Source: Betaproteobacteria bacterium (lineage in GTDB: Bacteria; Pseudomonadota; Gammaproteobacteria; Burkholderiales; Burkholderiaceae_C). From it: 64,000 bases of DNA. The notes under the pieces are model-generated. The model was not told the DNA's origin and did not search any database. It worked only from the letters and a program-made list of their open reading frames with translations. This document shows, piece after piece, positions 49,168 through 63,897 of this stretch. The stretch is from contig JABCYW010000016.1 in assembly GCA_013289985.1 (NCBI GenBank), positions 1 through 64,000 on the forward strand. Direction: 5' to 3'. How positions within the stretch are numbered: the first letter of the stretch is position 1; each line of letters starts with the position of its first letter. The translations under genes and the position numbers were made by a program.

Positions 49168-51030
49168 ATGATCACCAGAACCTTTGCCCTGTCGACGCTC
49201 GCCTGCGCCCTGCTGCTCTCGTTCGGTGCGCCGCGGCACGCCCACGCCGCGGGCGACAAGATCGTCATCGCCAAGCAGGCCGACCTGCCGCGCTTCAGCT
49301 ACAGGATCGCGGGCACGGCCACCCGGTTCGTCGAGGCCGAGCCCGCGGCGTTCAACGCGTTCGCGGCCCAGGTCGACAAGGACATCGAGGGCGTGCTCGC
49401 CAACTACCAGATCGACGACAAGTCCACGCTCATCCAGCTGCTCGGCGCCAAGGTGAGCTACCAGGAGCTTGCCGGCGACTACGCGGGCGGCCTCAAGACC
49501 GTCGACGAGCTGCGAGCGCTGCAGACCAAGCCCGCGGCCCAGGCGCTCACCGGCCTGCTCGCCCGTGCCCGCCTGCAGGCGGCCATCGACGCGGGCGGCG
49601 AGTCCGGCCCGGCGTTCGAGGCGGCGTTCAGGAAGCACTACGCCGAATCGATCGCGCCGCTGCCTTGGGCGGTGGTCAAGGACGGCGTCAAGGCCTCCTA
49701 CGGCTATTCGCGCATCGCGGGCCGCGCGGCCACGCTGGCCGACGTGACGACGGAGCTCGACCCGGCGGTCGCCAAGTCGGGCGCACTCGATTCCGGCGAA
49801 GCCTGGACGCTGCTCGGCACGCGCGTGGAGCTGAAATACGCCATGCCGCTGTACGGCGCGCGCGCCGACGTGCTGCACGAGTACATCGCGAAGAACGACA
49901 CGCCGGTGCCGGAGATCTGGTCGGCACGCGAGGTCACCCTCACGGCCGCCGACAAGCTCACGCCCGTGAACGTGGCGATCTGGGACTCGGGCATCGACGT
50001 GGCGCTGTTCCCCAGGCAGCTGTTCAACGATCCCAGGCCCACCGCCAGCGGCACGCACGGCCTCGCGTTCAACGACGACGGCACGCCGTCCACCCGCTGG
50101 ACGTACACGCTGACCGCCGTGCAGAAGGCCGCCTACCCGAGCTTCGAGCAGGAGATCCGCGGCCGCGTGGACCTGCAGAACGGCATCGACTCGCCCGACG
50201 CGCTCGCCGTGCAGAAGATCTACCGCACGATGTCGCCGGCCGAGATGCACGCCCGCCAGGAATCCGAGAAGGTGCTCGGCTTCTACGTGCACGGCACGCA
50301 CTGCGCCGGCATCGCCGTGCGTGGCAACCCGGCGGCGCGCCTCGTGGTGGCGCGCTTCGACGACCAGCTGCCCGACTTCCCGTTCCAGCCCACCGAGGCC
50401 TGGGTGAAGAAGATGGGCGCAGATTTCCAGCAGATGGGCGACTACTTCCGCACCCGCCACGTGCGCGTCGTCAACATGAGCTGGGGCGACGACGTGGCCG
50501 AATTCGAGACCTGGCTCTCGAAGACCGGCGGCGGCGCCGATCCGGCCGCCCGCAAGGCCAGGGCCGCCGCGCTGTTCGCGCTGTGGAAGGAAGCCATCGA
50601 GAAGGCCATCAAGTCGGCCCCCGACACCCTGTTCGTCACCGCCGCCGGCAACAGCGACAGCGACGCCGGCTTCCTGGAAGACGTGCCCGCCGCGCTGCAC
50701 CTGCCCAACCTGATCGCCGTGGGCGCCGTCAACAAGGCCGGCGACGAGACCTCGTTCACCAGCCACGGCGACACCGTGCTGGTGCACAGCGACGGCTACC
50801 TCGTCGACAGCGTCGTGCCCGGCGGCGCGCGCCTGCCGCTTTCCGGCACGTCGATGGCCTCGCCCAACGTCGTCAACCTGGCGGCCAAGCTGATCGCGCT
50901 CGACCCGACGCTGACGCCCGCGCAGACCATCGCGCTGATCCGCCAGGGCGCCACCGACACGCCCGACGGCCGCCGCCACCTGATGGACGAGCAGCGCTCC
51001 GTGGCCCTGCTCAAGGCCGGCCAGAAGTAA
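49168..51030 (+). CDS. Secreted S8 (subtilisin-like) serine protease
   Basis: A 620-residue exported protease with a signal peptide (MITRTFALSTLACALLLSFG, cut after AHA-A). Catalytic residues: D273 in VAIWDSGIDV, H375 in YVHGTHCAGIAV, oxyanion N495 in AAGNSDSD, and S562 in LSGTSMASPNVVN. About 270 residues precede the aspartate, and about 100 residues separate D from H with a large charged insertion, so this is not a compact subtilisin. The N-terminal part may be an inhibitory or chaperone segment. It has no C-terminal sorting domain and stands alone downstream of hut. Confidence 0.88.
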   Translation: MITRTFALSTLACALLLSFGAPRHAHAAGDKIVIAKQADLPRFSYRIAGTATRFVEAEPAAFNAFAAQVDKDIEGVLANYQIDDKSTLIQLLGAKVSYQELAGDYAGGLKTVDELRALQTKPAAQALTGLLARARLQAAIDAGGESGPAFEAAFRKHYAESIAPLPWAVVKDGVKASYGYSRIAGRAATLADVTTELDPAVAKSGALDSGEAWTLLGTRVELKYAMPLYGARADVLHEYIAKNDTPVPEIWSAREVTLTAADKLTPVNVAIWDSGIDVALFPRQLFNDPRPTASGTHGLAFNDDGTPSTRWTYTLTAVQKAAYPSFEQEIRGRVDLQNGIDSPDALAVQKIYRTMSPAEMHARQESEKVLGFYVHGTHCAGIAVRGNPAARLVVARFDDQLPDFPFQPTEAWVKKMGADFQQMGDYFRTRHVRVVNMSWGDDVAEFETWLSKTGGGADPAARKARAAALFALWKEAIEKAIKSAPDTLFVTAAGNSDSDAGFLEDVPAALHLPNLIAVGAVNKAGDETSFTSHGDTVLVHSDGYLVDSVVPGGARLPLSGTSMASPNVVNLAAKLIALDPTLTPAQTIALIRQGATDTPDGRRHLMDEQRSVALLKAGQK

Positions 51031-51771: not shown

Positions 51772-54315
51772 TCAGTCGGACGGCGGCGCGATAGCCCGCG
51801 CCGTCGCCGCGGCTTCCTTCAGCGTCTTCAACAGCGGCGGGAATTCGGCCGCCGGCACCGGCTGCGCCAGCAGGAAGCCCTGCATCTCGTCGCAGCCCTG
51901 GCGCACCAGCTGCAGCCGCTGCTCCAGCGTCTCCACGCCCTCGGCGATCACGCGCAGGCCCAGCTTGTGGGTCATCACGATGATGGTCTCGACGATGGCG
52001 GCGTCGTCCGAGTCGGTGGGGATGCCGCCGATGAACGAGCGGTCGATCTTCAGGCGGTCCAGCGGCAGCCGCTTCAGGTAGGCCAGGCTCGAGTAGCCGG
52101 TGCCGAAGTCGTCGATGGACAGCTGCACGCCCAGTTCGCGCAGCGACTGCAGCACGCTCCGCGCGTGCAGCGGATCGAGCATGACGCTGCTCTCGGTGAT
52201 CTCCAGCTCGAGGCAGCACGCCGCCAGCCCGCTCGTGGCCAGCGCGTGGCGCACCGCGCCGTCCAGGCCCGGACGCTGCAGCTGGCGCGCCGAGATGTTG
52301 ACGGCCACGCGCAGCGGCGACAGGTTGTCGGCCAGGCCGTCGCGCTGCCACTGCGCCACCTGGCGGCAGGCCTCGTTGAGCACCCACTCGCCGATGCCCA
52401 GCACCAGGCCCGTCTCCTCGGCCATGGGGATGAACGCGTTGGGCAGCACCAGGCCGCGCACCGGATGGCGCCAGCGGACCAGCGCCTCGACGGCGCAGAC
52501 CTCGCCGGTGGCCAGGTCCAGCTGCGGCTGGTAGTGCAGCTCCAGCTCCTGGCGTTCCACGGCGCGGCGCAGGTCGTTCTCCAGCCGCAGCCGGCCGTGC
52601 GCCTGGGCGTTCATCTCGGGGCTGAAGAAGCGGTAGGCGTTGCGGCCCTCGCCCTTGGCCTCGTACAGCGCGATGTCGGCGTACTTCAGCAGCAGCTCGC
52701 CGCTGCCGCCGTCGCGCGGGAACAGGCTCACGCCGAGGCTGGCGGTGACGTGCAGCTCCTGGCCCTCCAGCGTGAACGGCTCGCCGAGGGTGCGCATCAG
52801 CTTCTCGGCGATGCGGGCGGCGTCGGTGGCGCCGGCCACGTTGCACGCCACCACCTGGAACTCGTCGCCGCCCACGCGCGCGACGGTGTCGTTGTCGCGC
52901 AGCGTGGCGCGCAGGCGGCGCGCGATCTCCCGCAGCAGCTGGTCCCCGACGTCGTGGCCCAGCGAGTCGTTGACGATCTTGAAGCGATCGAGGTCGATGA
53001 ACAGCACCGCCACCTGCTGGTCGAGGCGCTGCGCCTGTCCCAGCGCCTGGCCCAGCCGGTCCATCAGCATCGCCCGGTTGGGCAGGCCGGTGAGCGAGTC
53101 GTGGTACGCGAGGTGCTCGATGCGCGCCTCCTGCGCCTTGCGCTCGGTGACGTCCTGGATCACGCCGGCGCGCCGCACGTGGTGGCCCGAGCCGTCGCGC
53201 ACGACGTAGACGCGCATGGCCACGTAGCGGGTCTCGTGGCCAGGCGGGCACACGCGGAAGTCGATCTCGAAGTCCACCGGATCCGGCGCCTCCATGCGCG
53301 CGCGGACGGCGGCGCGGTCGTCCTCGTGCACCTGCTCCAGCCAGGCGCGCGAGTCCGCGTAGACGGCCGCCACGGGCATGCAGAAGATGCGCTCGAACGC
53401 CGGGCTCACGTAGAGCGTGACGTGGCGCAGCGGGTCGCCCAGCCAGAACACGTCGCCGATGGATTCGGCCATCTGGCGGAAGCGCTCCTCGCTCTCGCGC
53501 AGCGCGCTGCGCTCGCGCTCCAGCTGCGCGCGGTACCACGCGTTCTCGATGGCCATCGGCAGCCGGTGCAGCAGGTCTTCCTGCTTGACGAGGTAGTCGG
53601 TGGCGCCCAGCTTGAGCGTCTGCGCGGCGCTGTTCTCGTCGCCGTGGCCTGCGATCACGATGATGGGCAGGCTCGAACCGCGCTCGTGGCGCAGCTCGCG
53701 CACCACGTCCAGCGCGTTCATGCCGGGCAGCTTGAAATCGAGCAGCAGCACGTCGGGGCCCGCCTCGACCGCCGGCGGAAGGCGCGCGAGCGCCTCCTGC
53801 GCGGTGTGCACGGCCTCCACCTGCACGTGCGGCGCGTAGCGGGCCAGGTGGCGCCGCAACAGGTCGACGTCGTTGGCGCTGGGCTCGGCGTACAGCACGC
53901 GAATGGGCGTGGAGCGCCGCGCCGAGGCCGCGCGGAACGAGTTCACGACGCCGGCCAGCGTGGCGGGCAGCCGGTCGATGTAGGCGCCGTCCTTGACGAT
54001 GTAGTCATCGGCGCCGCCGCGCAGCGCCGTCACCACCAGCGCCTCGTCGCCGGAGCCGGTGAGCATCGCCACCGCGATGGGCAGGCCGCGCGCGCGCACC
54101 TCGCCCAGCAGCTCGAGCCCGTTGCCGTCGGGCAGGCGAACGTCCACCAGCAGCACGTCGGGCAGGCCGCCCGAAAGCTCCTCGGCGGCCAGGCGCGCGC
54201 GAGCGTCGGCCAGCGTGTGCACGGTGGCCAGGATCACGTCGGGCGCGAGCCGGGCCAGGCGCCGGCAGGTCAGGTCGGCGTCCTGTTCGTTGTCTTCGAC
54301 GTACAGGACTTTCAT
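51772..54315 (-). CDS. Dual-receiver PAS-GGDEF-EAL protein
   Basis: An 847-residue cytosolic protein. Two tandem receivers come first: phospho-acceptor D58 in VLLVDVRLPDGNG, and the aspartate of VLLLDFKLPG in the second. A PAS/PAC domain, a GGDEF domain (GGDEF at residues 482-486, with RxxD I-site RDND upstream) and an EAL domain (EAL at 610-612, DDFGTGYSSL intact) follow. Both cyclase and phosphodiesterase sites look complete, so its net activity is not predictable. It is the last gene of a kinase, Rcp1-type receiver, effector run, 13 bp behind the receiver gene, and is probably its output. Confidence 0.88.
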   Translation of the reverse strand: MKVLYVEDNEQDADLTCRRLARLAPDVILATVHTLADARARLAAEELSGGLPDVLLVDVRLPDGNGLELLGEVRARGLPIAVAMLTGSGDEALVVTALRGGADDYIVKDGAYIDRLPATLAGVVNSFRAASARRSTPIRVLYAEPSANDVDLLRRHLARYAPHVQVEAVHTAQEALARLPPAVEAGPDVLLLDFKLPGMNALDVVRELRHERGSSLPIIVIAGHGDENSAAQTLKLGATDYLVKQEDLLHRLPMAIENAWYRAQLERERSALRESEERFRQMAESIGDVFWLGDPLRHVTLYVSPAFERIFCMPVAAVYADSRAWLEQVHEDDRAAVRARMEAPDPVDFEIDFRVCPPGHETRYVAMRVYVVRDGSGHHVRRAGVIQDVTERKAQEARIEHLAYHDSLTGLPNRAMLMDRLGQALGQAQRLDQQVAVLFIDLDRFKIVNDSLGHDVGDQLLREIARRLRATLRDNDTVARVGGDEFQVVACNVAGATDAARIAEKLMRTLGEPFTLEGQELHVTASLGVSLFPRDGGSGELLLKYADIALYEAKGEGRNAYRFFSPEMNAQAHGRLRLENDLRRAVERQELELHYQPQLDLATGEVCAVEALVRWRHPVRGLVLPNAFIPMAEETGLVLGIGEWVLNEACRQVAQWQRDGLADNLSPLRVAVNISARQLQRPGLDGAVRHALATSGLAACCLELEITESSVMLDPLHARSVLQSLRELGVQLSIDDFGTGYSSLAYLKRLPLDRLKIDRSFIGGIPTDSDDAAIVETIIVMTHKLGLRVIAEGVETLEQRLQLVRQGCDEMQGFLLAQPVPAAEFPPLLKTLKEAAATARAIAPPSD

Positions 54316-54328
54316 GGCGATCAGCGTC

Positions 54329-54751
54329 TCAGGCCGTCTGCTGGTTGAGGACGCACCAGTACAGATCGATCTGCGCCGCCACCTCGATGAACTTCTCGAA
54401 CTCCACCGGCTTGACGATGTAGGAGTTGACGCCCAGCGCATACGCCGCGGCGACGTCGGCGTCCTCGCGCGAAGTGGTGAGCACCACCACCGGGATGCGG
54501 CAGTACGCCGGATGCGCCTTCAGCTGGCGCAGCACCTCGAGGCCGCTGACGCGCGGCAGCTTCAGATCGAGCAGGATGACCACCGGCAGCGGGTGGCCCG
54601 ATTCCCAGCGTGCCATCCAGTCCAGCGCCTCCTCGCCGTCGCGCGCCACTTCCAGCACGTTGACGATGTGGCGCTTCGCGAACGCGCGCTGCGTCAGGTC
54701 GACATCCATCGGGTTGTCTTCGACGAGCAGGATGGGCCGGCGGTCTTCCAT
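54329..54751 (-). CDS. Single-domain response regulator (Rcp1-like)
   Basis: A 140-residue stand-alone receiver of the cyanobacterial Rcp1 type. It has the acidic pocket ILLVEDNPMD, phospho-acceptor D62 in VVILLDLKLPRVSG, the threonine in VVLTTSRE and the lysine in YIVKPVEF. It has no output domain. It sits between a PAS histidine kinase (92 bp upstream) and the GGDEF-EAL effector (13 bp downstream), so it probably shuttles phosphate or competes for it. A TATGCT hexamer 6 nt before its ATG may be its own -10. Confidence 0.88.
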   Translation of the reverse strand: MEDRRPILLVEDNPMDVDLTQRAFAKRHIVNVLEVARDGEEALDWMARWESGHPLPVVILLDLKLPRVSGLEVLRQLKAHPAYCRIPVVVLTTSREDADVAAAYALGVNSYIVKPVEFEKFIEVAAQIDLYWCVLNQQTA

Positions 54752-54843: not shown

Positions 54844-56760
54844 TCACATGTTCGGAGCTTGCTCGACGGCGGGCAGCTCGATGTAGAACGTCGCGCCCTG
54901 GCCCACGGCGCTTTCGGCCCAGACGCGCCCGTGCATGCGTTCGACCGCCTTGCGCACGATCGCCAGGCCCACGCCGGTGCCCGGGAATTCCTCGGCGCGG
55001 TGCAGGCGCTGGAAGATCTCGAAGATGCGGTCGTGGTACCGCATGTTGAACCCCGGCCCGTTGTCGCGGACCCAGAACAACGCGCGGCCGTTCGCGCGCC
55101 GCACCCCGACCTCGATCTCGCGCCGGGGGCGGCCGGCGGTGAACTTGAGCGCGTTGTCCAGCAGGTTGCGCAGCGCCAGCACCAGGCCCTCGCGCTCGCC
55201 CACCACGGCCAGGTCCGGCTCCACGGAGCGGGTCAGCGTCACCTCGCCGGCGGCGGCCTCGGCCGCCACGCCATCGACCACCGCCGCCACCACCGGCGCC
55301 GGCGCCACCGGCCCCAGCTCGGGCCGGCCACGCTCCACGCGCGAGTAGGCCAGCAGGTCGTCGATGAGGTCGCCCATGTGCGCGGTGGCCTTGCGGATCC
55401 TCGCCACGAAGAAGCGCCCCTCCTCGTCGAGCTCGCCGGCGTGGTCGGACTCCAGCAGCCGGCTGTAGCCGTCGATGCCGCGCAGCGGCGCCTTCAGGTC
55501 GTGCGACACCGAGTAGGTGAACGCCTCCATCTCGCGGTGCTTGGCCTCCAGCTCCGAGGTGCGATCGGCCACGCGATGCTCCAGCTCGATGTTGAGCGAG
55601 CGCGTCTCCTGCTCGGCGCGGCGCCGCTCGGTGACGTCGATCAGGAAGCCGTGCCACACGACGCCGCCGTCGGCCTCGCGCACCGGCATCGAGTGCGCCT
55701 CCAGGCAACGCTCGCCCCCGGGCGCGCGCGGCACGCGGAAGGTGGCCAGCCATGCGCTGCCCAGGTCGGCCGAGGCGCGCAGCGAGCCGGCCACGGCCTC
55801 GCGCTCGTCCGGGTGAACCAGCGCCAGCAGGTCGATGCCGCGCTCCACCAGCGTGGCCGCGTCCACGCCCAGCAGGTCGCGGATGGCCGGGCTCGCGAAC
55901 GTGAAGCGGCCGCGGCCCTGCGCGTCCTGGCAGTACGAATGCACCGCGCCGGGCGCCGTCGCGACGAGGCGCTCCAGCCGCTCCTGCGCGTCGCGGTGCG
56001 CGCGTTCCAGCGTGATGTCCTCGGCGAAGCCGGCCATGTAGCGCATCCGGCCGTCGGGGCCGAACAGCGGAAAGCCGCGGCCGCGGATCCACACGAGACG
56101 GCCGTCGGGACGGTTCACGCGGTACTCCGTCTGGTACATGCCGGCGGCGTCGGCGCGCAGGGCTGCCTCGGCCACGCGCTGCCTGTCGGCGGGGTCGACG
56201 CCGTCCAGCCAATGCGCCAGGTCGTCGTAGAGCGGCGCCGCCGGCCGGCCCCAGATGCGCTCGTAGGCCGAGTTCATGTACAGCAGTTTTCGCGCGCGCG
56301 GGTCGACGATCCATATCAGGTCCAGCGAATGGTCGCCGAACATGCGCAACAGCTGCTCGCTCTCCTGCAGCGAGCGCGCCGCGTTGCGCTCGTGGGTGTA
56401 GTCGGTGAAGGAGACGACCGCGCCACGCCCCCGGCCCGCGCCCACGTCGGCGATCGGCACGGCCCGCACGCGCAGCCAGCGCCGGCCGTGCGGGGTCTGC
56501 ACGACGACGATGCCCGAGGTCGTCTCGCCGTTGCCGTTGATCGCGCGCCAGACGGGTCGCGCCTGCTGCGGCATCGCCTGGCCGTGCTCGTCGGACTGCG
56601 CCCAGCCCAGGTCGTCGATGCGCGCGCCGAACGCGTGCTCGTCGATGCCCAGCACCGTGCGCGCGGCTCGGTTGGCGTCGACGATGCGCAGCTCGGCGTC
56701 GAACCAGAGCATGCCCGACTCGAGCGAATCGAAGATGCGGCGGCTGGTCTCGGACTCCAC
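54844..56760 (-). CDS. Multi-PAS histidine kinase (phytochrome-like core)
   Basis: A 638-residue soluble kinase: three PAS domains (residues about 8-125, 135-260 and 265-385), HisKA with H420 in YSVSHDLKAPLRGIDGYS, and HATPase_c (LRNLLDNALKFT, DNGPGFNM, GTGVGLAIVRKAV). The kinase core is of the kind paired with Rcp1-type receivers. It starts at GTG 56760, preceded by a strong GGAGGT (56772-56767 on the minus strand). It has no membrane segments, so the signal is cytosolic, perhaps redox or a small ligand. It is first in the three-gene signalling run. Confidence 0.88.
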   Translation of the reverse strand: MESETSRRIFDSLESGMLWFDAELRIVDANRAARTVLGIDEHAFGARIDDLGWAQSDEHGQAMPQQARPVWRAINGNGETTSGIVVVQTPHGRRWLRVRAVPIADVGAGRGRGAVVSFTDYTHERNAARSLQESEQLLRMFGDHSLDLIWIVDPRARKLLYMNSAYERIWGRPAAPLYDDLAHWLDGVDPADRQRVAEAALRADAAGMYQTEYRVNRPDGRLVWIRGRGFPLFGPDGRMRYMAGFAEDITLERAHRDAQERLERLVATAPGAVHSYCQDAQGRGRFTFASPAIRDLLGVDAATLVERGIDLLALVHPDEREAVAGSLRASADLGSAWLATFRVPRAPGGERCLEAHSMPVREADGGVVWHGFLIDVTERRRAEQETRSLNIELEHRVADRTSELEAKHREMEAFTYSVSHDLKAPLRGIDGYSRLLESDHAGELDEEGRFFVARIRKATAHMGDLIDDLLAYSRVERGRPELGPVAPAPVVAAVVDGVAAEAAAGEVTLTRSVEPDLAVVGEREGLVLALRNLLDNALKFTAGRPRREIEVGVRRANGRALFWVRDNGPGFNMRYHDRIFEIFQRLHRAEEFPGTGVGLAIVRKAVERMHGRVWAESAVGQGATFYIELPAVEQAPNM

Positions 56761-56807: not shown

Positions 56808-58463
56808 TCAGTCCGCCGCAAACAGATCGGATGCCAGCTGCGCCGCGCCCGACGGCGCATCCGGCACCCAGCGCAGCACCCGCGCGCCCGCCAGCGTGGC
56901 GCCGATCCGGTGGCGCCGGCTGGGACGGGCCTCGGCGAAGCCGATCTCGAACACCTGCTCGGGTGCCACGGCGTGCACGCCGCCGAAGCGCGAGCCGGCG
57001 TGGGCGCGCAGCCAGTCGTGCAGGCGCAGCAGCTCGTCGTCCGGCAGCGCGATGGGCAAGCGCGCCAGCGGCAGCAAGCGCAGGCCCTCGGCGCCGTCGG
57101 GCGCGGCGATGACCTCGCCGGTCAGCGACGCGGCCATCGCGGCGCGCTGCTCCTCCTCGGATCGCGGAACGCGGCTCCACAACGCGAAGCCGCAGTCGAC
57201 GAAGGCCAGCGCGAGCGCCGCCGCCGTGCCCGCGGCGAATGCATCGCCCGGCACGTACTGGAGCACGGCGCGGACGCGGCGCATCGGCGCCCGCACGGCC
57301 CAGGCCGCGCCCGAACGGGCGTGCCGCAGCACGAGACCGCTCCAGCCGGCATCGCGCGCGGCGTGCGCCGCCTGCGCGAGATCGGCGCCGGCCGCGCCCG
57401 GCGGCGCCAGGTGCGGCGTCGTGAAGACGGGCGGCAGCGCCCGCGTGGCGTCCGGTGGCGCCCAGCGTTCCAGGAGCCGGCCGCGGCGCGAGCGGGGCTC
57501 CTCCGGCGCGCCGTGCCAGTCGACCAGCGCCAGGTGCAGCGACGTGTCCGCCTCGCCGCTCTTGCGGGCCCGCAGGGGCGGCGCCACGGCGCGTCCGGCC
57601 TGCCAGGCCAGCAGCACCGCCTCGATGACGCCGTCCTCGGGCCATTGGTCGGGCAGCAGCCAGTCCGCGGGGACGGCGTCGTTGAGCAGCCGGCCGCTGC
57701 GCTGCCACACGGCCACCTCGTCGCCGCGCCGCGCCACGTGCACGCGCACGCCCGGCCAGCGCGGCTCGGCGTGCAGTTCGCCGGACCGCCAGGCGGCCAG
57801 CAGCTCGGCGTGCAGGCTGGCGTGCGCTTCGTCCAGCGGCGCGAAGCCGCGCGGGCGCGGCAGGCCGGGTGCCAGCGTGGCCTGCCGCAGCACCTCGCGC
57901 CGGCGATGCCACCACCAGGCGACGTCCTGCGGATCGGCGTCGAACGCCCGGGCCCAGGCGCGCTGCCATTGCCACGCATCCACGCTGGGTCGCGCCAGCC
58001 CGCACACGGCGCGCACGGCCCAGCGGCGGGCGATGGCGTCGTCGAGGCGGGCGATGGTCTCCGCGATCGCGCCCGCGCGCTCCGGCGCGGGCCGGGCCGC
58101 CGCCTCGGCCCAGTCCGCGAGCCAGTCGGCAAGCGCGGGCCGGCTCACGGGCGTCGGCGCGCCCTCGGGCCAGGGCAGCAGCAGCGCGATCGCCTCCGCG
58201 GCCTCCGCGGCGGCGTCGCGGCCCACGTCGAACAGCCAGGGCGCCGTGCCCCGCGTCGCCGCCAGCGCGCGGGCCGCCTCGGCGAGCGCGGCCTGGGTCA
58301 GCCGGGCAGGACGCGGCGACCGCGCGCCGGCCACCAGCCACTCGCCCGCGAGCGCGCCCGCGTGACGCCCCGCCGCGCGCAGGTGGCGCGCGAGCGCGTC
58401 CACGCGATCGGCGTCGCCGGGGCGCGATTCCAGCTCTTCGGTGAGGACGGCCAACGCACGCAT
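56808..58463 (-). CDS. Catalytically inactive ATP-dependent DNA ligase homologue
   Basis: A 551-residue protein that follows the architecture of the bacterial LigC/LigB-like ATP-dependent DNA ligases end to end. The N-terminus MRALAVLTEELESRPGDADR and the helical binding domain are there, as is the closing OB-fold, recognisable in RFGGVHAVAPEQVFEIGFAE. The nucleotidyltransferase motifs are ruined. Motif I, normally KWDG, is RWPG at 235-238. Motif III, normally DGEL, is EAVL (281-284). Motif IV, normally EGLMLK, is SGLVLR (375-380). Motif V, normally WxKxK, is WAVRAP (388-393). Self-adenylation is impossible by this scheme, yet the frame is intact. It lies 7 bp downstream of a small hydrolase gene. 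Confidence 0.72.
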   Translation of the reverse strand: MRALAVLTEELESRPGDADRVDALARHLRAAGRHAGALAGEWLVAGARSPRPARLTQAALAEAARALAATRGTAPWLFDVGRDAAAEAAEAIALLLPWPEGAPTPVSRPALADWLADWAEAAARPAPERAGAIAETIARLDDAIARRWAVRAVCGLARPSVDAWQWQRAWARAFDADPQDVAWWWHRRREVLRQATLAPGLPRPRGFAPLDEAHASLHAELLAAWRSGELHAEPRWPGVRVHVARRGDEVAVWQRSGRLLNDAVPADWLLPDQWPEDGVIEAVLLAWQAGRAVAPPLRARKSGEADTSLHLALVDWHGAPEEPRSRRGRLLERWAPPDATRALPPVFTTPHLAPPGAAGADLAQAAHAARDAGWSGLVLRHARSGAAWAVRAPMRRVRAVLQYVPGDAFAAGTAAALALAFVDCGFALWSRVPRSEEEQRAAMAASLTGEVIAAPDGAEGLRLLPLARLPIALPDDELLRLHDWLRAHAGSRFGGVHAVAPEQVFEIGFAEARPSRRHRIGATLAGARVLRWVPDAPSGAAQLASDLFAAD

Positions 58464-58470
58464 GCGTGCA

Positions 58471-59061
58471 TCATGCCGCCACCCGCCAGGGCCGCAGGTC
58501 GAGCCGGTTCAGCGCGCCGGCCGCCCACTCGCGCGCGAGCGGGAACGGGCCGAAGCCGGAGTCGACGTTGATGTGCCCGGCGTCGCCCAGGTTGACCCAG
58601 TTGCCGCCCCAGCGCGAGGCCCATTCGCGGGCCTGCGCGGCCGACATCCAGGGATCGGTGTCGCTGCCGACGACGCAGCTGGGCAGGCCGAGCCGGCCCT
58701 GCGGCAGCGCAGACGCCGCGTGGAAGCGGCCGGGATCCGCGGGCGCCACCAGCAGCAGCTGCGCCACGTCCAGGCCGGGCCGTCGCAGCACCGCGCGCAC
58801 GCTGGCCAGGCAGCCGAAGCTGTGGGCGGCGATCACGTGCGGGCCGGGGCCCAGCGCATCGAGGGTGTCCAGGAGGCGGTCGCTCCAGCGCTCGAGGTCG
58901 GGCGCGCTCCAGTCGTCCTGCTCGACCCGCACCGAGCCGGCCACCTGGCCGTGCAGCCAGGTCTGCCAGTGCCCCGGCCCGCTGCCGTGCAGGCCGGGCA
59001 CGATCACGAGTCGCGGGCGCGCCGCGGCGGCGCGATCGAAGGGCGTGTGCAGCGAATTCAT
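58471..59061 (-). CDS. RBBP9/YdeN-family alpha/beta hydrolase
   Basis: A 196-residue serine hydrolase. It has VIVPGLHGSGPGHWQ at the N-terminus, the nucleophile elbow AHSFGCL, the acid in VVGSDTDPWMS, and the histidine in GDAGHINVDSGFGPF, which is the classical YdeN/RBBP9 set. ATG 59061 (MNSLHTP) fits; an upstream frame to 59118 is probably not translated. It precedes the dead ligase homologue by 7 bp on the same strand and is likely co-transcribed with it. Substrate unknown. Confidence 0.85.
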   Translation of the reverse strand: MNSLHTPFDRAAAARPRLVIVPGLHGSGPGHWQTWLHGQVAGSVRVEQDDWSAPDLERWSDRLLDTLDALGPGPHVIAAHSFGCLASVRAVLRRPGLDVAQLLLVAPADPGRFHAASALPQGRLGLPSCVVGSDTDPWMSAAQAREWASRWGGNWVNLGDAGHINVDSGFGPFPLAREWAAGALNRLDLRPWRVAA

Positions 59062-59377
59062 GGCAGCCAGCGTAGGACGCGGCCCGGCCGTCGCCAACGA
59101 AGGAAATGCCATATCCATCGTCGCCGGCCAAGGCCGGGCAACTATTTCGCGAAAGACCCCTCAAGTTTCGCCCCGGCCTGTCGATTAGCCGAACAAGCGC
59201 GCTCCCCGCCTGGCACGAATCGCCATGGTTCGATCACTGGAAGAGACGGGAGGCACGCCTGCATTTCTTCACGTCGCCGCTCGCGCGCCTGTGCCAGGGA
59301 CTTTCGCGCGCCGTGGACCGTGGGCAATATGAACGTGCGCGTCGCGGCCTCGCGGCGCACGCGCGAAGGACCACGCC
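59062..59377. other. Divergent intergenic region holding a sigma-28 promoter
   Basis: A 316-bp gap between the leftward hydrolase gene and the rightward flagellin-like gene. No gene is visible. The plus strand holds a sigma-28 promoter at 59161-59187. The 180 bp or so downstream of it form the leader, with an AAGGA ribosome site at 59366-59370. Confidence 0.6.
59161..59187 (+). promoter_or_regulatory. Sigma-28 (FliA) flagellar promoter
   Basis: TCAAGTTT (59161-59168), an exact 11-nt spacer, then GTCGATTA (59180-59187). Against the TAAAGTTT-N11-GCCGATAA consensus the match is 7 of 8 in the -35 and 6 of 8 in the -10, with correct spacing. CTCAAG-type -35 boxes are usual for flagellar class 3 genes in beta-proteobacteria. 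It drives the flagellin-like orphan at 59378. Confidence 0.75.
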
Positions 59378-60202
59378 ATGTTGACGCCCAGTTCGCCCAT
59401 TCCAACGCCGTTCTCCAACGCGGCCACCAACACCGCCAAGCCGGCGGAGGTGGAGGCCACGGCGCGCACGGCGTTCCGCGAGCAGATGCGCCTGGCCAAC
59501 GATCACGAGACCCGCGTCGCCAACGACGCGGCCGCGCTGGCCGCGTCGCGCCAGCACGCGACGGAGGTGCCCGACCCGATGGACAGCCTGTCGACGGTGG
59601 CCGTCGCCGGCGCGATGAACAGCCTGCCCGCCGCGCTCAACATGCTGCGCAGCATCGCGATGGCCTCGGCCGCCGGCACCCTGTCGGAGGCCGATCGCCA
59701 GGCCCTGCAGTCGGAATACGCCCAGCTCACCGCCCAGGTGGCCAGCACCGTGGGCAGCGTCAGCGCCAGCCAGCAGGCGCAGACCTCCACGACGCACGAC
59801 GGCGAGCGCGAGGACAACGCCGGGAACAGCCGGCGCGAGGACGGCGACGACCATCGCACCACCCTCACCCAGACGATGGAGATGCCCAGGGAGACCGTGC
59901 AGTACCAGCCGGTCGAGCGCACGACCACCGTGCAACGGCAGGCGCTGGTGGAGGACGGCCACGGCCCGCGGAAGGATCCGCGGGTGGACTTCCGCACGCA
60001 CGAGCTGCACGTGGGCGCCGATTCGTACGAGCCGGTGTCGATGCGCCAGTCCATGGAACACCCGACGGCGCCCGAGACCTTGGCCCGCATCGAGACGCAC
60101 GCCGAGACGCAGCACAGCTTCGTGGCGCAGGCCGCGCAGATCACGCAGTTCGTGCAGGTCGCGCAGACCGAGCACATCCCGCCGGTCGTGGCGGTGGCTT
60201 AG
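59378..60202 (+). CDS. Flagellin-like orphan protein under sigma-28 control
   Basis: A 274-residue protein without a signal peptide or membrane segment. Residues about 84-125 ([20 protein letters not shown], then [16 protein letters not shown]) echo the flagellin D1 helix pattern seen in LRIRELAVQAANGTLSDADR-type sequences. The flanks are helical and polar, and the C-terminal half is Gln/Thr/Glu-rich with regular hydrophobic spacing. It lacks a flagellin C-terminal domain. With its flagellar promoter it is probably a motility or late-flagellar accessory protein. I do not recognise the family. Its stop overlaps the convergent ssuB stop by 4 bp. Confidence 0.7.
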
Positions 60203-60963
60203 GCGACGAGGCGCACGCCTTCGCGCGGCGGCTCGTCGAGCACCCGCGCCAGCACCCGGCCTTCCAGCTCCGCGAACGCCGGCGATCCGTGCGCGCGGGG
60301 CCGCGCGAGCGCCACGCGCTCGTCCAGCGTGACGCGGCCGCTCTCCACCAGCAGCACGCGGTCGGCCAGGGCCACGGCCTCCGCCACGTCGTGCGTGACG
60401 AGCACCGCGGTGAAACGCAGCTCGCGCCACACCGACTCGATCAGGCGCTGCATCTCGATGCGCGTGAGCGCATCCAGCGCGCCCAGCGGCTCGTCCAGCA
60501 GGAGCAGGCGCGGGCGATGGACCAGCGCGCGGGCGAGCGCCACCCGTTGGCGCTGGCCGCCGGACAGCACCGCGGGCCAGTCGCCGGCGCGGTCGGCCAG
60601 GCCCACCTGCGCGAGCGCGTCCCGCGCGCGCGCCGGCGCATCGCGATCGGCGAGGCCCAGCTGCACGTTCTGCAGCACGGTGCGCCAGGGCAGCAGGCGC
60701 GCCTCCTGGAACATGATGCGCACGTCGTCGGGCGTCGCATCCGCCAGCCTGAGCGCGCCCGCCGTGGGCGTCTCGAGTCCGGCCAGCAGGCGCAGCAAGG
60801 TGCTCTTGCCGCAGCCGCTGCGTCCGACGATGGCGATGAACTCGCCGGGATTCACGTCCAGCGTGATGTCGTGCAGCACCTCGCGTTCGCCGAAGCGCTT
60901 GCCCAGTCCTTCGACCTGCACGCCCAGGCCGGCGGCGGGCGGGGTGTTCCATTCGCGTTGCAT
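60199..60963 (-). CDS. ssuB: Aliphatic sulfonate ABC transporter ATP-binding protein
   Basis: ATPase subunit of the alkanesulfonate importer, 254 residues from ATG 60963 ([10 protein letters not shown]). Walker [11 protein letters not shown]-loop [10 protein letters not shown] (typical of the nitrate/sulfonate/taurine class), signature [15 protein letters not shown], Walker [13 protein letters not shown] and the switch VTHDVAEAV are all intact. A start five codons upstream is possible. It is the last gene of the ssu operon, just after the frameshifted permease gene. Confidence 0.92.
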
Positions 60964-60981
60964 GGCAGGATCCTCCAACTC

Positions 60982-61763
60982 TCAGGCCGGCACCGCGGCG
61001 TAGGCCGGGTTCCAGCGCAGGAAACGTCGCTCGAGGCCGCGCGCGACCAGGTCGGCAGCTTGCCCAGCAACGCGTAAAGCAGCACGCCCACCAGCACCAC
61101 GTCGGTCTGCAGGAATTCGCGCGCGTTCATGGTCATGTAGCCGATGCCCGACTGCGCGGAGATGGTCTCGGCCACGATCAGCAGCACCCACATCAGGCCC
61201 AGCGAGAAGCGCAGCCCCACGAGGATGGACGGCAGCGCGCCCGGCAGGATCACCTCGCGGTACAGCGGCCAGCCCTTCAGGCCGTAGCTGCGCGCCATCT
61301 CCACCAGGCCGGCGTCGACGGACTTGATGCCGTGGTAGGTATTGAGGTAGATCGGGAAGAACACGCCGATGGCCACCAGGAACAGCTTGGCCGACTCGTC
61401 GATGCCGAACCACAGGATGACCAGCGGGATCAGCGCCAGCGGCGGCACGTTGCGCACCATCTGCAGCGTGGTGTCCAGCAGCGTCTCGGCGGTGCTGAAC
61501 GTGCCGGTGAGCAGCCCCAGCGCCAGGCCCAGGCCACCGCCGATGGCCAGCCCCGCCACGGCGCGGCCGGTGCTGATGGCCACGTCGCGCAGCAGCTCGC
61601 CCGACTTCAGCAGGCTCCAGGCCGCCTGCGCCACGGCGAAGGGCTCCGGCAGGATGCGCGTGGACAGCCAGCCCGTGCGCGACGCGACCTCCCAGCCGGC
61701 GATGACCAGCAGCGGCACGATCCATGGGGCGACGCCGCGCAGGCGTCCGGCGTTCGAGGCCAT
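60982..61763 (-). pseudogene. ssuC: ssuC permease with a single-base frameshift near its end
   Basis: Permease subunit with about six membrane helices and the binding-protein-dependent transport motif EVILPGALPSILVGLR. It reads normally from ATG 61763 to VLLYALLGK, then shifts frame near 61056. The other frame resumes the expected C-terminus ADLVARGLERRFLRWNPAYA and stops at 60982. The interval is one base short of whole codons, consistent with loss of one G (minus strand) in GCTGGCC. Read as is, translation would run on for about 68 unrelated residues, to 60852 inside ssuB. It is either a true mutation or a sequencing error. Confidence 0.85.
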
Positions 61764-61765
61764 GG

Positions 61766-62953
61766 TCAGCTCGCGCTTCGGGCCAGGTCGACGCTCTTTG
61801 GCCGGATGTCGTTGGCGACGATCTCGCCGAACGGGCCCGTGAGCACGGGCTGCGATGCGAGCTTCTCGCGCGTTGCCAGCGGCAGCAGCGGGAACACCAG
61901 CTCGGCGAAGCGGTAGGCCTCCTCCAGGTGCGGATAGCCGGACAGGATGAAGTAGTCCATCCCGAGGTCGGCGTACTCCTGGATGCGGTCGGCCACCTGC
62001 CGCGGGCTGCCCACCAGCGCCGTGCCGGCGCCGCCGCGCACGAGGCCCACGCCGGCCCACAGGTTGGGCGACACCTCCAGCCCGGCGCGCGGGTTGGCCT
62101 TGTCGAACTTGCCGCCATGCAGCTCGGCCATGCGGCGCTGGCCGATGGAGTCCATCGAGGCGAACTTCTTCTGCGCCGCGGCGACGATGTCGTCGTCCAG
62201 GTGCGAGATCAGCTTGCCGGCGGCGGCCCAGGCCTCCTCCTCGGTCTCGCGCACGATCACGTGCAGGCGGATGCCGAATTCGAGCTTGCGGCCCAGCTTC
62301 TCCGCGCGGCCGCCCACGTCGCGCACCTTCTCGGCCACCGCGGCCGGCGGCTCGCCCCACGTGAGGTAGGTGTCGCACTGCGCGGCCGCGAGGTCGTGCG
62401 CGGGGCCCGACGAGCCGCCGAAGAACAGCGGCGGATACGGCTGCGTCACCGGCGGGTAGATCACCTTGGCGCCCTTGACCTTCAGGTGCTTGCCGTTGAA
62501 ATCGATGGCCTCATTCCTGTGGCTGGCCTCCAGCACCTCGCGCCAGATCGTGACGAACTCGGTGGAGACCGCGTAGCGTTCCTCGTGGCTCAGGTGGAGG
62601 CCGTCGCCCGCCAGCTCGTCGGGGTCACCGCCGGTGACCAGGTTCACCAGCACGCGGCCGCCCGAAAGGCGATCCAGCGTGGCGGCCATGCGCGCGGTCT
62701 GCACCGGCTGGATGATGCCCGGGCGCAGCGCCACCAGGAACTTCAGGCGCTTCGTGACGTCGACCAGGCTGGCCGCGACCATCCACGAGTCCTCGCACGA
62801 GCGGCCCGTTGGCAGCAGCACGCCCTCGTAGCCCAGCGTGTCGGCGGCGATGGCCACCTGCTTGAAGTAGTCGAGGTCGGTCTGGCGTGCGCCGTGCGAG
62901 GTGCCGAGGTAGCGCGAGTCGCCGTGGGTGGGGATGAACCAGAGGATCTTCAT
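61766..62953 (-). CDS. ssuD: FMNH2-dependent alkanesulfonate monooxygenase
   Basis: Releases sulfite from alkanesulfonates using FMNH2 and O2. At 395 residues it belongs to the bacterial luciferase-like TIM-barrel family. It starts [19 protein letters not shown], and it carries [33 protein letters not shown] and the C-terminal [20 protein letters not shown]. It needs a flavin reductase (SsuE), which is not in this window. The gene is packed 2 bp from both neighbours in the ssu operon. Confidence 0.95.
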
Positions 62954-62955
62954 GA

Positions 62956-63897
62956 TCAGGCTTTCAGTACCGCGTCGGCGACGCGGATCGGCTTGGGAAT
63001 GAGGCCGAGCTTCGAGAACGCATCGGCCACGCGCTGCTGGTCGGCGATGTCGGAATCCTTCAGCCGCGTGACCGGGCCCGAGGTGCGACGTTCGATGAAG
63101 CGGATCGTGGTGGACAGCGGCAGCCCGCTGGCCACCGACAGGAAGTGCGCGGTCTCGGTGCGATTGCCCTTGACCCAGGCGTCGGCCTCGCTCAGCGAGT
63201 CAAACAGGGCCTTGAGCGTGCGCGCGTCCCGCGTGAGCGCGCGCGAGGCGAGGTAGTAGCTGTTGTTGCTGGTGAGGCCGACGCCGGTGGAAAGGACGCG
63301 TGCGCGCCCGTCGATCTCGGCGGCCGCGTAGTACGGATCCCAGATGCCCCACGCATCGAGTGCGCCGCGCTCGAAGGCGGCGCGTCCGTCGGACGGCGTC
63401 AGGTAGACGGGCGTGATGTCCGACCACTGCAGGCCGCCCTTCTCCACGCCGCGCACCACCAGGAAGTGGGCGCTGGAGCCCTTCTGGAAGCCGATGCGCC
63501 TGCCCTTGAGGTCGGCCAGCGTGCGGACGGGAGAATCGACCGGCACCAGGATCGCCGAGCTGGCGGGCTTGGGCGGCTCGAGGCCGGCGTACCAGATGTC
63601 CTTGCCCGCGGCCTGCGCGAACACGGGCGGGGTATCGCCGGTGAAGCCGAAGTCCAGGCTGTCGACGGCCAGCGCCTCGAGGATCTGCGGGCCCGCGGGG
63701 AACTCCACCCACTTGAGCGGCGTGCCCGGCAGGCGCGCCTCGAGCAGCCTGCGCTCGCGCGCCACCATCAGGTTGACGGACGACTTCTGGTAGCCGATGC
63801 GCAGCTCCGGCGTGCCGGCGCGCACGGGCAGCGTCGCCGCGCCGGCCCCGGCGCCGACGAGCGCCAGCGCCTGGCGACGATTCAGGAACGCGTGCAT
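62956..63897 (-). CDS. ssuA: Aliphatic sulfonate-binding protein (copy 1)
   Basis: Periplasmic sulfonate-binding protein, 313 residues. The signal sequence [20 protein letters not shown] has an RR pair that may permit Tat export. The mature protein shows [42 protein letters not shown] and [11 protein letters not shown], all SsuA signatures. It ends [17 protein letters not shown], nearly the same as the end of the partial gene upstream, so two binding-protein genes lie in tandem. It is followed by ssuD after 2 bp. Confidence 0.92.

Follow-up and report, generated by a model that had tools for sequence, protein, structure and literature searches.

A full-length ATP-dependent DNA ligase homologue without catalytic residues, very probably retained as a pseudoenzyme in two Burkholderiales species

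Introduction

How does a gene for a DNA ligase homologue stay full-length once its catalytic residues are gone, and what might its product still do? This question is raised by one gene in the window, by which we mean the whole stretch of 64,000 nucleotides analysed here. DNA ligases are defined by one lysine-based chemistry, and a preserved natural descendant without the lysine separates a structural role from sealing. Four genomes of the genus were compared, namely the window genome (G000) and three congeners (G001, G002 and G003). The G000 assembly consists of 210 contigs, and absences reported for G000 refer to that assembly; the G001 assembly was rated 88% complete and 5% contaminated.

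Results

Homology to cluster-type ligases

The gene, hereafter the pseudo-ligase, is encoded on the minus strand at 56808..58463, with its ATG at 58463 and its stop codon ending at 56808. The initial annotation had given these coordinates and the 551 aa product correctly and had left the strand unstated. Three domains are arranged along the minus strand: an N-terminal, DNA-binding-type helical domain (about residues 1-200, 57864..58463), a degenerate nucleotidyltransferase domain (about residues 205-394, 57282..57851) and a C-terminal OB-type domain (about residues 395-551, 56811..57281). An orthologue was found in G001 (L031:7702-9369), which is 67% identical and shows the same losses, RWPG included.

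A ligase ancestry had been proposed from the sequence at the outset, and profile searches agreed with it. In the NCBIfam search the pseudo-ligase matched NF006701/PRK09247 (E 4.2e-34, 118 bits, cut-off 543) and TIGR04120 (E 4.9e-31, 108 bits, cut-off 400), each match being split into two stretches and the N-terminal one covering residues 1-290. Both significant matches lie far below the curated cut-offs, and no Pfam family was matched up to E 1. The G001 orthologue fell below the same TIGR04120 and PRK09247 cut-offs (108 and 114 bits), while a canonical congener ligase reached 679 and 738 bits. Hence, the pseudo-ligase does not belong to the TIGR04120/PRK09247 equivalog family. When a profile built from the two orthologues was compared by hhalign with one built from seven canonical ligases that belong to the same order, a probability of 99.9% and an E value of 2.3e-31 were obtained over 501 columns. 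A sequence search of solved structures returned one match, a DNA ligase, at E 0.23. AlphaFold2 runs with three-row alignments, on the whole pseudo-ligase and on the OB part separately, gave a mean pLDDT of 39 in both. Judged from the profile alignments, the pseudo-ligase is a real but remote ligase homologue that spans all three domains.

Loss of the catalytic residues

The canonical set for comparison consisted of 57 distinct ligases out of 84 listed loci, after exclusion of matches shorter than 480 aa, of repeated copies of one core and of loci lacking a strong ligase frame. In one step of the analysis, 18 loci of the genus were set aside by design. The motif I lysine is present in 57 of 57 canonical relatives and is lost in both pseudo-ligase orthologues, where RWPG (R235-W-P-G238, 57750..57761, minus strand) occupies the place of the canonical KWDG or KYDG (KxDG). 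Further along the same strand, the alignment to the canonical relatives places EAV (281-283, 57615..57623) at motif III for DGE, SGLVLR (375-380, 57324..57341) at motif IV for EGxMLK and AWAVR (387-391, 57291..57305) at motif V for WWKWK, so that the loss of catalytic motifs claimed in the initial annotation holds. In the motif VI region, RHRIGATLAGARVLRWVPDA (517-536, 56856..56915) stands for RHKSGxAxRFPRxLRxRxDK. The motifs are numbered I and III-VI by convention; the residues themselves come from the alignment.

The losses extend beyond the motifs. Of 142 columns conserved to at least 95% in the 57 canonical relatives, 55 are kept by the window protein and 52 by the G001 orthologue. When each column was counted over its lettered rows, with at least 30 such rows required because the C-terminus is truncated in four of the rows, 176 columns resulted; the window protein retains 75 of these and the G001 orthologue 70. 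By part, the window protein and the G001 orthologue keep 23 and 24 of 52 N-terminal columns, 20 and 19 of 62 nucleotidyltransferase columns, and 32 and 27 of 62 OB columns. The DNA-binding domain signature FRVGVS is altered to ARPSVD in the pseudo-ligase, and DNA binding may be weakened because of this change.

All eight lysines conserved in the canonical relatives are replaced in both orthologues. The window protein has a single lysine, at the non-conserved position 301, and the orthologue in G001, in which a lysine at a shifted position would have counted against the reading, has the same losses and zero lysines in 555 residues; the 57 canonical proteins contain a minimum of 13 and a median of 19. 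The window hydrolase is also free of lysine, and the residue is generally scarce at this locus. A low lysine count is thus unremarkable here; what matters is that no lysine is left to serve as the nucleophile. The retained overall ligase architecture could still suggest a working ligase whose nucleophile has moved elsewhere, but a lysine-free orthologue, a lysine 301 without conservation and the additional loss of the acidic residues of motifs I, III and IV make this hardly credible.

Purifying selection after the loss

The initial annotation had reasoned that a decaying gene would carry stops or frameshifts. Both orthologue frames are indeed open throughout, and their protein alignment is continuous with eight small gaps. 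However, the absence of stops says little, because the window GC is 70.9% and the antisense frame over the pseudo-ligase DNA is itself open for 594 codons; on account of that antisense frame, an open frame was rejected as proof of function.

Substitution patterns were more informative. The pairwise codon model (F3x4) gave an omega of 0.134 for the two orthologues (2dlnL 177 against omega 1), with 0.127 for the N-terminal part (residues 1-205), 0.184 for the nucleotidyltransferase part (residues 206-405) and 0.093 for the OB part (residues 406-551); the codon-model dS is high at 1.66, so the exact omega values are soft. Eight other genes of the two loci ranged from 0.051 to 0.144. By NG86, which ignores codon bias, the pseudo-ligase had a much less strict omega of 0.46 (bootstrap 0.37-0.58), and the same eight genes had 0.20 to 0.67. 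Among the six frames examined by NG86, the gene's own frame was lowest (0.46), followed by antisense +1 (0.58), and the other four exceeded 1.3. The dN/dS comparison that had been proposed as a check thus points to purifying selection by both methods, within the range of the neighbours.

Since the losses are common to both orthologues, constraint acted after catalysis had gone; the pseudo-ligase is under purifying selection after its catalytic loss. The same losses in two species also mean that neither a sequencing error nor a fresh pseudogene is being observed. A decaying gene that has yet to meet a stop codon, easy enough at 71% GC, would fit the open antisense frame, the very long stem in the ligase tree and the absence from G002 and G003 (see below). 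Against it, omega is well below 1 by two methods and in line with eight neighbouring genes, and the shared losses place the constraint afterwards, so we consider decay improbable. The fold might alternatively have been repurposed for a different, lysine-independent chemistry. New features common to both orthologues, namely tryptophan-rich stretches near 164-185 and the RWPGVRVHV segment, would be in keeping with such a change; however, constraint is weakest in the nucleotidyltransferase part (61% identity), and no new catalytic pattern was recognised in either orthologue, which leaves repurposing a slim chance. The best account of a full-length homologue with lost residues, purifying selection and the same losses in two species is a ligase descendant without catalytic residues that has been retained as a pseudoenzyme, as the initial annotation had suggested, and we regard this as very probable.

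Distribution of the lineage

Among 100 genomes (the own genome and its relatives), 30 matched the pseudo-ligase at E 0.001 or below, and this lineage was present only in G000 (1178 bits) and G001 (657 bits), the next match scoring 79 bits. In a draw of 399 genomes from the family, 95 matched the two-row profile at E 1e-15; two exceeded 1000 bits and the next scored 118. At the level of the order (399 genomes, E 1e-34) and of the class (369 genomes, E 1e-36), only G000 itself was recovered, with thresholds chosen to leave out canonical ligases, overlapping draws and at most three candidates scored per genome. Two short peptide patterns, suited to finding close relatives only, were run against the species genomes of GTDB and gave one record, JAEKKH010000158.1, a Burkholderiales MAG contig. 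The pseudo-ligase was not found in G002 or G003, and a plasmid search gave no match. Scans of viral contigs, made to deepen the alignment, returned the same two loci each time, L156 and L157. These IMG/VR loci (L156:1154-2752 and L157:1-1599) carry an identical (100%) ligase of the canonical type of this family, at or near the contig start.

In the ligase tree the stem of the pseudo-ligase measured about 10 changes per column and drew long-branch and composition warnings, and its placement failed. A two-gene tree joined G001 with G003 (92/94) and left G000 outside, and G000 and G001 were the closest pair in only one of seven genes. If the two-gene tree is right, the pseudo-ligase would already have been dead in the ancestor of the genus and would later have been lost in the G003 line.

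An exonuclease of the same locus

The gene had been described as standing apart from the nuclease usual for this ligase family. That description was not supported, as a TIGR04122 exonuclease occurs both in G000 and near the G001 orthologue. G000 has one TIGR04122 gene, Exo2, on contig C30 at 49397-50419 (L120:9398-10420), and the idea of a missing nuclease was rejected on this ground. Exo2 of G001 (L031:12315-13322) is 82-83% identical and lies about 3 kb upstream of the pseudo-ligase; G001 carries a separate Exo1 as well. A response-regulator gene follows Exo2 in G001, 107 bp past it in the direction of transcription. In G000, the extreme ends of two contigs carry the homologue of this regulator (C16, 71% identity) and Exo2 (C30), in matching orientation. 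A terminal overlap between C16 and C30 was looked for and not found. Because the regulator and Exo2 at the two contig ends match the synteny of G001, we infer that C16 and C30 abut, which would place Exo2 about 8 kb upstream of the pseudo-ligase in G000. In G003 the regulator and a DUF805-like gene are adjacent without Exo2. Exo2 and the pseudo-ligase are both present in G000 and G001, and neither was found in G002 and G003.

EEP, PLD, Exo and ligase genes are present together in 11 of 26 loci of other genera, each time (11/11) in the order EEP-PLD-Exo-Lig on one strand. The order is kept in G001, except that inserted genes separate Exo2 from the pseudo-ligase. This suggests that the original ligase of the EEP-PLD-Exo-Lig locus survives as the pseudo-ligase.

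Exo2 scores 408 and 414 bits, above the family cut-off of 325. Of 116 columns conserved among 59 other Exo proteins, the comparators left after two long-branch rows (L046 and L054) had been dropped, it retains 103. Among these are the HxHxDH motif and the His and Asp residues further on, which we take to be the metal ligands. Exo2 is therefore apparently active. Exo2 stands on a long tree stem (1.22 changes per column), which indicates that it has diverged in this lineage too. A viral contig scan for Exo2 gave no match. As an observation in its own right, Exo2 is a lone divergent TIGR04122 exonuclease without an active ligase alongside.

Other repair genes of the genus

Canonical Exo, Lig, Lhr and MPE matches were obtained in G001, G002 and G003; the Lhr match of G002 is split over two contigs, each part being under the cut-off. 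The 210-contig assembly of G000 gave no match at all to PF01068 and none to MPE, and neither a ligase nor an Lhr passed its cut-off, the best Lhr score being 268 of 850 bits. G000 does have a LigA-type match. Unlike G000, the three congeners have both canonical and further partial ATP-dependent ligase matches. G001 carries a canonical ligase as well, so the pseudo-ligase is not its sole ligase homologue. The canonical cluster of G001, a possible contaminant in view of the assembly rating, lies on contig C463. At the DNA level this cluster shares about 84% identity with G003, as other genes of G001 do, and its GC equals that of the pseudo-ligase contig.

The hydrolase and its neighbours

The gene upstream of the pseudo-ligase in the window (58471..59118, minus strand) is a PF06821 serine hydrolase (Pfam, E 6.7e-46), and the pseudo-ligase starts 7 bp after the hydrolase stop. 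Downstream lies a PAS histidine kinase (54844..56760, minus strand), identified by family search. Beyond it are two frames, named by reading, for a putative response regulator (54329-54751) and for a putative GGDEF/EAL protein (51772-54441). The pseudo-ligase thus occupies the slot between hydrolase and kinase, as it also does in G001. In G003 a gap of about 75 bp separates the end of the hydrolase from the histidine kinase; the flanking genes are the same, and no ligase lies between. Of the pairing proposed in the initial annotation, the identity of the hydrolase therefore stands and the pairing itself does not; as a necessary partner the hydrolase was rejected, given that G003 keeps hydrolase and kinase without the pseudo-ligase. 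From gene order, the PF06821 hydrolase is probably a bystander.

A retained pseudo-ligase might nevertheless do work unrelated to Exo2, for example as a DNA-binding, protein-binding or regulatory protein serving the hydrolase and kinase genes. The 7 bp spacing, the same slot in G000 and G001 and the other genes that separate the pseudo-ligase from Exo2 would all agree with such work. However, G003 lacks the pseudo-ligase and still has the hydrolase, the kinase, the response regulator and the EAL protein, and the gap to the hydrolase widens to about 190 bp in G001, so that tight coupling is not conserved. We hold a role unrelated to Exo2 to be rather unlikely.

On the other side of the hydrolase, the plus-strand gene at 59378-60202 is fast-evolving (60% identity to G001, NG86 omega 0.59), and its place is conserved in G000, G001 and G003. 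Frames at 60199-63897 would, by reading, encode a set of sulfonate-type transport and oxidoreductase proteins; two parts of it, 60199-60978 and 61766-62953, have homologues at the same place in G003, and no match to these was seen in the G001 stretch L031.

Discussion

For a protein of this kind, a structural or DNA-binding role is plausible. We propose that the ligase of an Exo/Lig/Lhr/MPE cluster would have lost nucleotidyl transfer before the two carrier species split, and would have been kept afterwards as a non-catalytic protein. Its N-terminal and OB-type domains may still recognise DNA ends or nicks, and the pseudo-ligase would then act as a structural partner of Exo2 that presents or limits the Exo2 substrate, with sealing left to the NAD+-dependent LigA. 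Counting against this proposal are the genes between Exo2 and the pseudo-ligase, the linkage in G000 through contig ends, the altered FRVGVS signature, the sample of four genomes, and the less strict NG86 omega together with a high dS. Taken as a whole, a retained, non-catalytic pseudo-ligase that recognises DNA ends or nicks as structural partner of Exo2 and leaves sealing to LigA has about an even chance of being correct. Exo2 as the candidate partner in place of the hydrolase falls somewhat short of an even chance. The more specific form, in which a ligase pseudoenzyme that is lysine-free in one species serves as non-catalytic subunit of a diverged MBL-fold Exo2 and both recognises and presents DNA, is offered as a tentative possibility. 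If true, it would describe a repair module whose ligase scaffold recognises and presents DNA without sealing.

What the bacterial Exo/Lig/Lhr/MPE cluster does biologically is not known (PMC10140301), so a lineage without ligation that keeps both nuclease and ligase scaffold would provide a natural experiment on it. Openly licensed papers on pseudo- or inactive ligases, judged by titles and abstract openings, deal mainly with mutants of ligase IV, with the enzymology of ligases and with ubiquitin ligases. No natural inactive DNA ligase was found in those titles and abstract openings, which is weak evidence of absence, and on the same basis structural roles have so far been separated from sealing with engineered ligase IV mutants.

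Compared with the TIGR04120 'cisplatin damage response ATP-dependent DNA ligase'/PRK09247 (LigB in PMC10140301), the pseudo-ligase is alike in domain order, in length and in its similarity over 501 columns, and the usual EEP-PLD-Exo-Lig order is recognisable around it. It differs in the loss of the catalytic lysines and acidic residues, in its score (108 versus 400 bits) and in the other genes between it and Exo2.

A second parallel is the pair CPSF-73 and CPSF-100, of the MBL-type nuclease fold class. CPSF-100 is a dead homologue that has been kept beside the active CPSF-73 (PMC10211241), much as the pseudo-ligase would have been beside Exo2. There, however, the dead partner is a nuclease homologue in a shown complex, whereas the pseudo-ligase descends from a ligase and its complex with Exo2 is a proposed one.

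The closest functional precedent is ligase IV. As reported, catalytically inactive ligase IV still promotes repair (PMC9638927, PMC3694833), and DNA-end binding by ligase IV builds a synaptic complex (PMC10858965). Like the human K273A and yeast Dnl4-K466A forms (PMC9638927, PMC3694833), the pseudo-ligase is a ligase homologue, predicted to be adenylation-dead, for which a structural role in repair is possible. Those proteins are engineered eukaryotic point mutants, whereas the loss described here is natural, complete and found in two species.
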